From positions 1 to 42,941 of the forward strand of contig QHVM01000020.1 in NCBI GenBank assembly GCA_003223555.1: 42,941 nucleotides of DNA. The letters are read 5' to 3'. The DNA comes from Acidobacteriota bacterium. GTDB taxonomy: Bacteria > Acidobacteriota > Vicinamibacteria > Fen-336. Position 1 is the stretch's first letter. The number at the start of each line of letters is the position of its first letter. Below, in pieces: positions 1-3,176 of the stretch. The position numbers and the translations under genes are program-made. The notes beneath the pieces are model-generated. The model did no database searches. It had not been told where the DNA came from and saw nothing but the letters and a program-made list of their open reading frames with translations.

Positions 1-1320
1 GAGATGCGGATCCTGGACGAAGACCTTGTCCTTCGTGAGGATGCTGATGATCTTTTCTCTCGTCTTCTTCGTTTCAGGGTTACCTGGATCGTCGTCCACC
101 AACGCGATCGTCGGGATCTTGAAGTCCTTCAGCAGCCTCGCCGGCACGGGGATGTCGCTGATCGAGTCCATGCCCAGCACCGAGATGTTCAGGCGGTCCA
201 GTGGAATTCCTAGCTTCTCGAGCACACACCTGGTCGCGATTTCATCCGCCGGACCCTCGCAGAGGATCACGAGCGACGAGAAAAAGACCTCATTCAAACG
301 CTCATTGAACTTGGACAGGAGCTTCAGTCGATCCTTGTCCTCGATGTCGTCGAGATCCGAGCCGGAGCGGACTCGCGTCATGCCCTTCCACTTCCGGACG
401 AGGTGGATGTTCTCGTACGACCCGACGTCCACGAACGACCGCTCGTGCGTGGTGTAGATGATCTGGAGGCCTTCTTCCGACAGCTGTCGGAGCAGCGCGT
501 TGAAGTGCCGGCATGCATGCGGATGCAGGTTGAGCTCTGGCTCCTCCATCGCGAGCAACAGCGGCTTCTTCACGACCTCGGCGTATGCCTTCGCGATACT
601 AAGAGCCAGCGCGCTCTGGACTCCGGCCCCCACTTCCTCCGCGTCGAACGTCATCCCGTCTTCGATCAGGTAGGGTCGTACGCCTTTGAGCATCTCCAAT
701 GGATGCAGCAGGGAGAAAACCATCTTGACGTTCAGCCCCGTCTGCTTCTGGACGAAGTCGTTGATCGTCGCCTCGACGGGATCAACACCGGGCCCGATGT
801 GATCGCGGTAGGCAGTGTCCACGGCCTCCTCGTCGAGTTGGGCCTCGATACGCTTCAGCAGCCGGCCGTAGAGCGTCCACTGCGTGGGACGAAGCTGCTT
901 CTCGGCCTGGCGGTCGATCCCGAGGAACAGCAGGACGACCTCGTCGCGCATCTGCCGTGACACGCGTTTGAAGTTGCCACGAGGGTACAGGACGTCGTTC
1001 CAGTCCACGTCGATCGCGACGTACTCGACGTCGTCGTCAGCCTTGTACGTCAGCCGGAAACCGTACACCTCCAGATCGCAGTCAAGCGGCGCGTCGAACA
1101 CCACAGCCACGTTGATCGGCATGGTGTTGTCGTGCTTGTGGAAGTCCTTCTCGGTGAACGGCCGCGACGGCCAGGTCTCGCCGAGGATGATCGCGAGCGC
1201 CTGGAGGATGTTGCTCTTGCCGGCGTTGTTCCTGCCGACGAACGCGTTTAGCTGTCCGAGCGTGACTTCGATGTGCTCGATCGAGCGATAGTTGTCGATC
1301 CGCAGCGTCTTGATCGCCAT
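1..1320 (-). CDS. OLD-family ATP-dependent endonuclease (AAA ATPase + TOPRIM), C-terminus cut by window edge
   Basis: 440 residues are visible; the gene continues past the left window edge. The N-terminus reads MAIKTLRIDNYRSIEHIEV, followed by a Walker A motif GRNNAGKS (about residues 29-36). A signature-like stretch GAGVQSALALSIA and a Walker B LLLAMEEPELNLHP follow, with IIYTTHERSF at the switch/H-loop position. After the ATPase comes the start of a TOPRIM domain: LVILCEGPADE supplies the acidic Glu and IALVDDDPGNPE the DxD. This order is the overcoming-lysogenization-defect nuclease architecture, also found in the GajA subunit of Gabija. The start at 1320 matches family N-termini; an in-frame ATG at 1359 is an alternative that would add 13 residues. 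No good Shine-Dalgarno is seen for either. It sits divergently from an excisionase/integrase pair, so a role in phage or plasmid defence is plausible but inferred. A partner helicase, if any, would lie outside the window. Confidence 0.85.
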   Translation of the reverse strand, partial: MAIKTLRIDNYRSIEHIEVTLGQLNAFVGRNNAGKSNILQALAIILGETWPSRPFTEKDFHKHDNTMPINVAVVFDAPLDCDLEVYGFRLTYKADDDVEYVAIDVDWNDVLYPRGNFKRVSRQMRDEVVLLFLGIDRQAEKQLRPTQWTLYGRLLKRIEAQLDEEAVDTAYRDHIGPGVDPVEATINDFVQKQTGLNVKMVFSLLHPLEMLKGVRPYLIEDGMTFDAEEVGAGVQSALALSIAKAYAEVVKKPLLLAMEEPELNLHPHACRHFNALLRQLSEEGLQIIYTTHERSFVDVGSYENIHLVRKWKGMTRVRSGSDLDDIEDKDRLKLLSKFNERLNEVFFSSLVILCEGPADEIATRCVLEKLGIPLDRLNISVLGMDSISDIPVPARLLKDFKIPTIALVDDDPGNPETKKTREKIISILTKDKVFVQDPHL

Positions 1321-1642
1321 GGCGGAAGGAGGAAAGGATAGGCCATTTTCGACACCCATGCGCAGAGCGTTGACCGCTCTGCATAGGTATCGATCTCGGA
1401 CTTGCGACAGTGTTTGGACTGTTGCAGCCCCGAAGTACGGAAGTCTTGGTCTCTGGCACGCTAGCCGCTCTCACTCTTGCGAGCCGGCCAACGGCGCTCT
1501 CAATCGAGAGAGCGACTCGGCGGTGGCTCTCGTTGATGCTGCTCGCCTTACAGGCGCTCGTAACCGGGGCGGCCATGGTCTCAGGCTTGCACGTCCGTGC
1601 GGTGCACAGTGATGGGGGGAGGGTCAGCGAGGTGGACCGGCC
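1321..1642. promoter_or_regulatory. 322-bp non-coding divergent region between OLD nuclease and HTH/integrase genes, with inverted repeats
   Basis: No convincing gene is seen. It holds a perfect inverted repeat GCAGAGCG-TTGAC-CGCTCTGC at 1362-1382, just upstream of the nuclease start. A second perfect inverted repeat CGCTCTC-AATCGA-GAGAGCG lies at 1495-1514, and another direct copy of CGCTCTC at 1466-1472. The shared CGCTCT core near a divergent xis/int promoter suggests operator or recombinase arm sites; this is inference. A Shine-Dalgarno-like GAGGTGGA at 1629-1636 serves the following GTG start. Confidence 0.45.
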
Positions 1643-1864
1643 GTGTCAGATCACGATGATATCCTGACGTCCGAGGAGGCGGCGAAGCTGCTCAAGGTGT
1701 CGGAGAGGACGCTGGAGCGCTGGCGCGTCCGCCGGCGGATCCCCTACGTGGAATACCCGAGGCAGGGGACCTGGGCGCCGATCCGGTTTCGCCGTACGGA
1801 TATCCTCGAGTGGCTGAGGCAACACGTCGTGAAGCCGACCCGTAACGGAGACCAACCGGCATGA
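1643..1864 (+). CDS. Excisionase-type helix-turn-helix DNA-binding protein
   Basis: 73 residues with a GTG start preceded by GAGGTGGA about 7 nt upstream. Residues 6-60 form a MerR-like/HTH_17 winged helix: LTSEEAAKLLKVSERTLERW is the typical first helices, and the wing follows as IPYVEYPRQG...IRFRRTDILEWL. Proteins of this family are recombination directionality factors (Xis) or small regulators that bend DNA at attachment sites. The stop codon overlaps the ATG of the integrase by 4 bp (ATGA at 1861-1864), so the two are translationally coupled. This supports an excisionase or integrase-regulator role for the element next to tRNA-Asp. A general regulatory role is the alternative. Confidence 0.8.
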   Translation: MSDHDDILTSEEAAKLLKVSERTLERWRVRRRIPYVEYPRQGTWAPIRFRRTDILEWLRQHVVKPTRNGDQPA

Positions 1865-2952
1865 AGGCGCGCCGACTACCGCGCGGCGTCTATCGCCGTG
1901 GCGACGTGCTCTGGATCCGCCTCAAAGGCGCGGACGGTAAGCTGACCCGCGAGACCACGGGCCAGTGTGACGTCAAGGTAGCGGAGACGATCCTCGCGAA
2001 GCGCAGGGCCGAGGCGGCGATGCTCAGCCACTTCCCCACCCGCAAGTTCGAACAGATCACCTTCGACGACCTGCGCGAAGCGTGGGAGCCGGCCCACTTG
2101 AAAAAGACGCCGAGCTTCAGGTACCTCCTGCCGCGAGTCCTCGAGGCGTTCGGTGGAGCGAAGGCCCGCGACATGACGCCGGCGAAGGTCCAGGAGTTCC
2201 TGGACCGCCTGAGGAGCAACGGCCTGTCGGCCTCGTCGGTAAACCACTACCGGACCATCATCAACTCGATCTTCAACGAGGCGATCCGGCACGGCCGATA
2301 CGACGTGAACCCGATCCGGGCGATCCATCAATTCCGGGAGCCGCCGGGGCGGGACCGCTTCCTCAGCATCGAGGAGTTCCGTCTCCTGATGGCGAAGTGC
2401 AAGGATCCAGAGCTGCGGACCGTGATCCTCGTGCTCTGCATGACGACGCTGCGGCTGCGCGAGCTGCTGAACCGTCGCTGGAGCGAAGTCCATCTCGACG
2501 GGCCGGCACCGTACGTTTCCGTGCCCCACACGAAGACCGGCGTGCCCAAGAAGACTCCCCTGCCTCGGGTGGCCGTCGAAGCGCTCCAGGCGCTCCCCAG
2601 CTACGGAAACAACGACTACGCGTTCCCGTCCAGGCCGACCACGAGATGGCGGAACCCGAAGAAGCCCTACCGGTGGGACTTCGGCCATGAGTTCCGTCAG
2701 CTCGTGCGTTCGCTAGGAATCGAGAATGTCCGGATCCACGACCTGCGGCACACCGGGCCATCCGTTCTCTTGATGCAGGGCATTCCCGGCGACGTCGTGA
2801 GGAAGATAACGGGCCACCGGTCCCGCGAGCTGGAGCGCTACCAGCACCTCTCGCCCGTATTCAGGGCCCAGACCGTGGACCTGATTGCCCACGTCTTCTT
2901 AGTGACACACCTACTGACACAGTGGCTCCGAGCGAGACGGAGAAAAAAGTGA
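1861..2952 (+). CDS. Tyrosine recombinase / site-specific integrase
   Basis: 363 residues. An N-terminal arm-binding segment (1-70) precedes a SAM-like core-binding domain (about 75-165; the segment ending SSVNHYRTIINSIFNEAI) and a catalytic domain (170-350). Catalytic residues are readable: Arg I in TTLRLREL, Lys in PHTKTGVPKK, the HxxR box HDLRHTG, the second His in ITGHRS, and the nucleophile Tyr in ERYQHL. The gap from the GH histidine to the tyrosine is eight residues rather than the usual nine, and the glycine of TGLR is Thr here. The gene points at the 3' end of tRNA-Asp, 34 bp away, the classic position of an integrase at its attachment site. It is coupled to the preceding HTH gene by an ATGA overlap. 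A phage, ICE or genomic-island origin cannot be told apart from this window. Confidence 0.9.
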   Translation: MKARRLPRGVYRRGDVLWIRLKGADGKLTRETTGQCDVKVAETILAKRRAEAAMLSHFPTRKFEQITFDDLREAWEPAHLKKTPSFRYLLPRVLEAFGGAKARDMTPAKVQEFLDRLRSNGLSASSVNHYRTIINSIFNEAIRHGRYDVNPIRAIHQFREPPGRDRFLSIEEFRLLMAKCKDPELRTVILVLCMTTLRLRELLNRRWSEVHLDGPAPYVSVPHTKTGVPKKTPLPRVAVEALQALPSYGNNDYAFPSRPTTRWRNPKKPYRWDFGHEFRQLVRSLGIENVRIHDLRHTGPSVLLMQGIPGDVVRKITGHRSRELERYQHLSPVFRAQTVDLIAHVFLVTHLLTQWLRARRRKK

Positions 2953-2986
2953 CCGTCTCGCAAGTGGCCGTCCCTAAAGGAAAATT

Positions 2987-3063
<77 letters not shown>

Positions 3064-3101: not shown

Positions 3102-3176
3102 TGGTGGGCGGTACAGGATTCGAACCTGTGGCCCTCGGTGTGTAAAACCGATGCTCTACCGCTGAGCTAACCGCCC
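3102..3176 (-). tRNA. tRNA-Val: tRNA-Val (anticodon TAC)
   Basis: 75 nt on the minus strand. The acceptor GGGCGGT pairs with ACCGCCC, the discriminator is A, and CCA is encoded. The D-arm is GCTCAGCGGTAGAGC, the anticodon loop TTTACAC carries TAC (3142-3144), and the T-arm is CACAGGTTCGAATCCTGT. It is transcribed ahead of tRNA-Asp, with a 38-bp spacer, probably as one precursor from the promoter at 3193-3222. Confidence 0.97.

Follow-up and report, generated by a model that had tools for sequence, protein, structure and literature searches.

Why does a gene for an OLD-type nuclease lie next to a recombination module at the 3' end of a tRNA gene, and could it be part of a defence module? This question was raised by the left end of a 42,941-nt stretch of DNA from an Acidobacteriota bacterium, probably a soil organism (hereafter the window), which is contig C23 of a genome assembly of 5.39 Mb in 151 contigs. 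The first-pass annotation had described an OLD-type ATPase/TOPRIM gene adjoining a coupled excisionase/integrase pair beside the 3' end of tRNA-Asp, and every part that it named was present at positions 1-2986 and in the tRNA itself (Table 1). Base 1 of the window is the first base of the contig and the contig boundary cuts the OLD gene, so the assembly holds no left flank of OLD. We found no contig, among the others of the assembly, that overlaps the left end of C23 or carries the missing 3' end of the gene. No partner gene was seen on the visible 5' side of OLD, and its downstream side lies beyond the end of C23.

Table 1. Features at the left end of the window, with the OLD loci of other genomes that are linked to restriction-modification (R-M) genes
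Feature	Position	Strand	Evidence or remark
OLD-family ATPase/TOPRIM nuclease gene, 5' 440 codons	1..1320	-	AAA_15 + OLD-like_TOPRIM; 6p74, 181 bits; catalytic residues
OLD/xis divergent intergenic region	1321..1642	.	between the two gene starts
Excisionase-type HTH protein (xis), GTG start	1643..1864	+	HTH_17 (E=1.9e-13); TIGR01764 above cut-off
Tyrosine recombinase (integrase), 363 aa	1861..2952	+	Phage_integrase (E=6.5e-18)
Two TGACAC repeats (2903, 2915), candidate integrase arm sites	2903..2920	+	inferred; motif recurs in distal arms of relatives
Attachment core, 47 bp	2987..3033	+	exact copies at distal border of related G002 and G004 elements
tRNA-Asp (gtc), integration target	2987..3063	-	tRNA call
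tRNA-Val (tac), start of conserved chromosomal flank	3102..3176	-	tRNA call
Five R-M-linked OLD loci	L078:6375-15205; L080:3177-11911; L081:1928-8989; L083:4506-9396; L086:2946-9620		type I, type II-like or type III R-M genes

The OLD reading frame (1..1359, minus strand) has no stop before base 1 and is open across all 440 visible codons. It matches the Pfam profiles AAA_15 (E=1.2e-31) and OLD-like_TOPRIM (E=6.4e-15), and the protein thus combines the N-terminal ABC-type ATPase with the C-terminal OLD TOPRIM domain that together define the family. Since the domain matches start at residue 14 of the longer ORF, translation probably starts at base 1320; the upstream ATG at 1359 is possible but less likely. 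The nearest homologue, of 490 aa, extends about 43 aa past the aligned part, so the gene in the window falls short of its 3' end by about 40 codons.

ATPase and nuclease activities have been shown for P2 Old and for the OLD protein of Thermus scotoductus (TsOLD), which cleaves DNA via a two-metal TOPRIM site, and the residues needed for both activities of TsOLD have been mapped (PMC7049728). By alignment, TsOLD K34, E276, H283 and H310 correspond in the window protein to K35 (Walker A), E260 (Walker B), H266 (D-loop) and H292 (H-loop). In the TOPRIM domain metal A is represented by E355, D409 and D411 (TsOLD E377, D431 and D433) and metal B by D359 (TsOLD D381), the positions matching TsOLD S478/E480 falling past the contig end. 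The Q-loop histidine (H140 in TsOLD) is replaced, at a position reported to be poorly conserved and variable in Class 1.

The best match to a solved structure was to this same TsOLD, a Class 1 protein (6p74, residues 16-426, 180.8 bits, E=4.5e-52), and the GajA chains scored about 60 bits (about 1e-15). To place the protein among its relatives, a maximum likelihood tree of 28 proteins, TsOLD not among them, was built with 200 bootstrap trees. The window OLD and its nearest homologue (G303, 51% identity) form a sister pair with support 100/100, within a nine-member branch with support 98/98. All 13 OLDs that have a UvrD-type helicase gene directly downstream fall in one separate branch (98/98) that leaves the window OLD outside, and a single change suffices to explain the helicase-linked label in 200/200 bootstrap trees. 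The deeper joins of the tree are unsure because of several long end branches.

These data bear directly on Gabija, to which the first-pass annotation had pointed as an alternative and in which the gene would be gajA with a GajB helicase to the left. GajA has the same two-domain plan as the window OLD, the PADLOC GajA profiles match it with E down to 3e-35, and the position of such a partner is off the contig. However, the PADLOC Old profile ranks higher (2.7e-46), TsOLD outscores GajA threefold in bits, and every sampled member of the GajA branch has the helicase gene directly downstream, in a supported branch from which the window OLD is separate; the Gabija alternative was therefore set aside and we give it scarcely any credence. 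As judged from these comparisons, the window OLD is most likely of Class 1 type, TsOLD-like and not a GajA. It shares with TsOLD the ATPase and TOPRIM residues, and differs from it in being 3'-truncated, in lacking the equivalent of Q-loop H140 and in being islet cargo beside tRNA-Asp. A C-terminal helical domain is absent from Class 1 OLDs, and the nearest homologue of the window protein has no more than 490 aa.

Two other families with this domain content were considered and rejected. A Class 3 OLD, the Retron-Eco8 effector, is disfavoured by a score of 58 bits for the NCBIfam profile retron_eff_Eco8 against a cut-off of 250. In PARIS the ATPase and TOPRIM domains are on separate genes (AriA/AriB), whereas the window has both in one ORF and PADLOC Old outranks AriA; single-gene AriAB fusions are known (PMC10568477).

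The DNA that carries these genes differs in composition from its surroundings. The GC content is 60% in OLD and 64% in xis and int, compared with 71.6% in the rest of the window, and the step falls at the tRNA. The left 3 kb has a GC content of 62.3%, against a minimum of 65.2% for any 2,950-bp stretch elsewhere in the window; the dip is not due to chance, as the first 2,950 bp are lower than every other stretch of that length. The xis and int genes overlap by 4 nt (ATGA, 1861-1864), and OLD diverges from them; neither a sigma-70-like consensus nor a terminator-like site was found in the region between OLD and xis. Residues 168-347 of the integrase are 97% identical in a genome of the same genus (G002), at the same tRNA, where the contig also terminates within the integrase. 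At the DNA level this integrase stretch is 93% identical between the two genomes, whereas the flanking core genes are 79-81% identical.

The attachment core begins at the 3' end of tRNA-Asp and stops within the anticodon loop. Contig C144 of G002 has a 47-bp copy identical to window 2987-3033, with a conserved arm behind it on the element side. This 131-bp distal arm is found again in another related genome (G004:C91), where it follows two more copies of the 47 bp with identities of 85% and 80%. The distal arm that follows the core in the related elements is of the GAAAA...TAGGTGAG type. The int-side border, composed of the integrase 3' end, the TGACAC repeats and the core, can be aligned in the window, G002 and G004. 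Repeats of the form (T/C)GACAC are present in both arms and are candidate arm sites for the integrase. In the genome of the window no distal attachment site was found besides the tRNA itself, using the 24-bp core with up to 2 mismatches, BLAST with the 47-bp core and the 131-bp arm of G002; the distal border of the islet is beyond this assembly, and the boundary is seen only in the related elements. We also noted that one end of contig C16 in G002 (L048:6994-7027) holds a 34-bp stretch that copies the tRNA-Asp 3' end at 91%; this may be an additional attachment site or a piece of a tRNA.

The proposal that the element is integrated at tRNA-Asp is thus supported by the same integrase family, the 47-bp core and the distal arm, all found at tRNA-Asp in related genomes. 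We also checked the contrary view, that the genes are plain core genes with no second attachment site. Second sites were found in G002 and G004, and a search of the family's 13 other genomes gave no OLD match at E<=1e-10. Taken together, these elements are a recurrent islet family at tRNA-Asp. They resemble other tRNA-integrated islets with a tyrosine integrase and an excisionase in having the integrase at the tRNA 3' end, a core that extends from there back to the anticodon loop and, in the relatives, a direct repeat at the distal border, which for the window islet is not in the assembly. They differ from the usual islets in the small size of related elements (4.2 kb in G004) and in their tandem arrangement at one tRNA-Asp in that genome.

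An excisionase and an integrase at a tRNA are also compatible with a temperate phage, and the element could be a prophage or a phage satellite in which OLD acts as a lysogenic conversion gene, like old of P2. OLD genes are indeed present in P2 and in Burkholderia phage KS5, and P2 Old resembles the window protein in having an ATPase and a TOPRIM domain and in being a mobile-element gene that adjoins lysogeny functions. However, the phage proteins are only remotely similar (about 24-25% identity along a portion of the sequence; for P2 Old a partial match only, E=9e-6) and lie elsewhere in the tree, phage structural genes are not seen, the single related element with both borders measures just 4.2 kb, and a pattern-limited search of IMG/VR gave no close relative of the integrase. 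We therefore consider a phage origin very unlikely.

Compared with the G002 copy, the window integrase has a 1-nt deletion near position 2899 that changes only the last residues past the catalytic tyrosine region. With this frameshift at the C-terminus of its integrase, the islet may have lost the ability to move. The deletion (region 2895-2952) shortens the window integrase, and the integrase frames of G002 and G004 continue through the attachment core. The deletion would fit a decayed islet remnant in which OLD is left over with no present function, as would the G004 element, which retains a mere remnant of its integrase, and the position of the OLD 3' end beyond the contig. Against this, the visible OLD frame is intact and has kept all of the catalytic residues that can be tested, and we regard decay as highly improbable.

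The related elements carry different cargo. In G002 a HigBA-type pair, composed of a Gp49/HigB-like toxin and an HTH_37 antitoxin, adjoins the distal arm. G004 has at least two elements in tandem at tRNA-Asp, one of which, at L040:12397-16690 (G004:C91:177397-181690), is the sole fully bordered related element, with both borders at tRNA-Asp. It encodes a PIN_10 protein, a DUF433/HTH_66 protein and a fusion of an AEP-TOTE primase with a ResIII-type helicase, and its integrase is a 3' remnant at the int side. In a third genome (G003) an 809-aa AAA_15 protein is encoded directly beside tRNA-Asp (L042:11514-13943), with a weak best PADLOC match (59 bits); no integrase or distal repeat is visible at that locus. 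From the motif EGLADQ...DSDSAG, read by eye as there was no domain match, the C-terminal part of this protein appears TOPRIM-like. The cargo genes in G002, G004 and G003 are all of conflict type.

One copy of a strongly folding repeat of about 105 bp was seen just outside the distal attachment site of G002 (L039:1740-1845). The genome of the window has more than 40 dispersed and tandem copies of it (in C105, C126, C132, C138 and other contigs), which are about 75-85% alike. The repeat has no Rfam match, and no copy was detected in the window.

The explanation that we favour, and consider probable, is that the locus is a small islet at the 3' half of tRNA-Asp, with a tyrosine integrase and a translationally coupled excisionase, that carries a Class 1-type nuclease as defence cargo. 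This is supported at the sequence level by the gene set, the 47-bp core common to the distal borders of the relatives, the TGACAC repeats in both arms, the turnover of cargo, and the intact ATPase and visible TOPRIM residues. That OLD is a defence gene of the islet is our reading of this sequence context, and it would act alone or with neighbours that lie beyond the contig end. In such a mechanism OLD would dimerise through its ATPase region, sense a state of the DNA, or of a repair enzyme of the host, that is linked to infection, and cleave nucleic acid at the two-metal TOPRIM site. Cleavage would protect the host, and hence the element, from phages or competing elements, and OLD would probably work without a GajB-type helicase. 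Anti-phage effects are known for only a few Class 1 OLDs (PMC10568477, PMC13261556), and in one of these the TOPRIM domain is dispensable (PMC13261556).

The OLD family is already known, and an OLD on an islet is ordinary cargo at an insertion hotspot. Class 1 OLD nucleases have been described as rare, isolated and poorly understood; the locus adds an Acidobacteriota example, with OLD as the cargo of an islet at a hotspot, tRNA-Asp, where related elements exchange conflict genes.

A different context was observed among the closest kin of the window OLD. G303 was found by a phylum-wide genome search, and a single-sequence peptide-pattern search of GTDB contigs and IMG/VR gave no close relatives. 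Five of the eight other members of the nine-protein branch, in a sample that is small and was gathered by similarity to the window OLD and not at random, lie within or directly behind R-M genes (Table 1). G303 has the order hsdR, SLFN/AlbA_2, hsdS, old, ATPase and hsdM fragment; in G474 hsdS overlaps old with hsdR nearby; and G394 has hsdR-hsdM-hsdS-old with 4-nt overlaps, the hsdS/old overlap being 4-7 nt in these three Acidobacteriota genomes. On a plasmid of Mesorhizobium, old follows an Eco57I-type methylase after 28 nt, and on one of Bacillus badius it follows an annotated type III mod-res pair after 25 nt. According to a review, Class 1 OLDs are single genes located away from other defence genes (PMC10568477), and the R-M linkage of the nearest kin runs contrary to this picture. 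No description of R-M-linked OLD genes was found in the literature searched; PA1939 of PAO1161 has been reported to be independent of the R-M system.

The window OLD could accordingly be the accessory nuclease of an R-M locus in the unassembled part of the islet, where it would degrade DNA opened by restriction or back up failed restriction. The nearest homologue and four more of the eight branch members argue for this, but the window gene, which diverges from xis, is the first of its transcription unit and has no R-M gene before it, and N6_Mtase, matched in 13 of 14 control genomes, has no match in the whole assembly. We find this reading unlikely, and for the window gene the R-M linkage is, for these same reasons, a lead and not a finding. 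A broader possibility, put forward tentatively and itself somewhat unlikely, is that the window OLD belongs to a distinct lineage of accessory nucleases of several R-M types, whose genes can move out of the R-M operon and spread on tRNA islets as stand-alone defence genes. As the branch recurs in R-M operons, cooperation between OLD and restriction enzymes is testable, and this side observation merits a proper survey.

The remaining three branch members are G198, with a solo gene beside tRNA-Pro, and G085 and G452, with serine-recombinase-like neighbours or a position close to the end of a contig. The G198 homologue (about 34% identity, L079:8475-10154) immediately follows tRNA-Pro and contains an in-frame TAA close to its N-terminus; there is no integrase near it. 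An IMG/VR contig filed as viral (3300014838_001990, L144:4106-9686) encodes an OLD homologue of 30% identity that is preceded by two unidentified large ORFs, which may be a defence-type pair.
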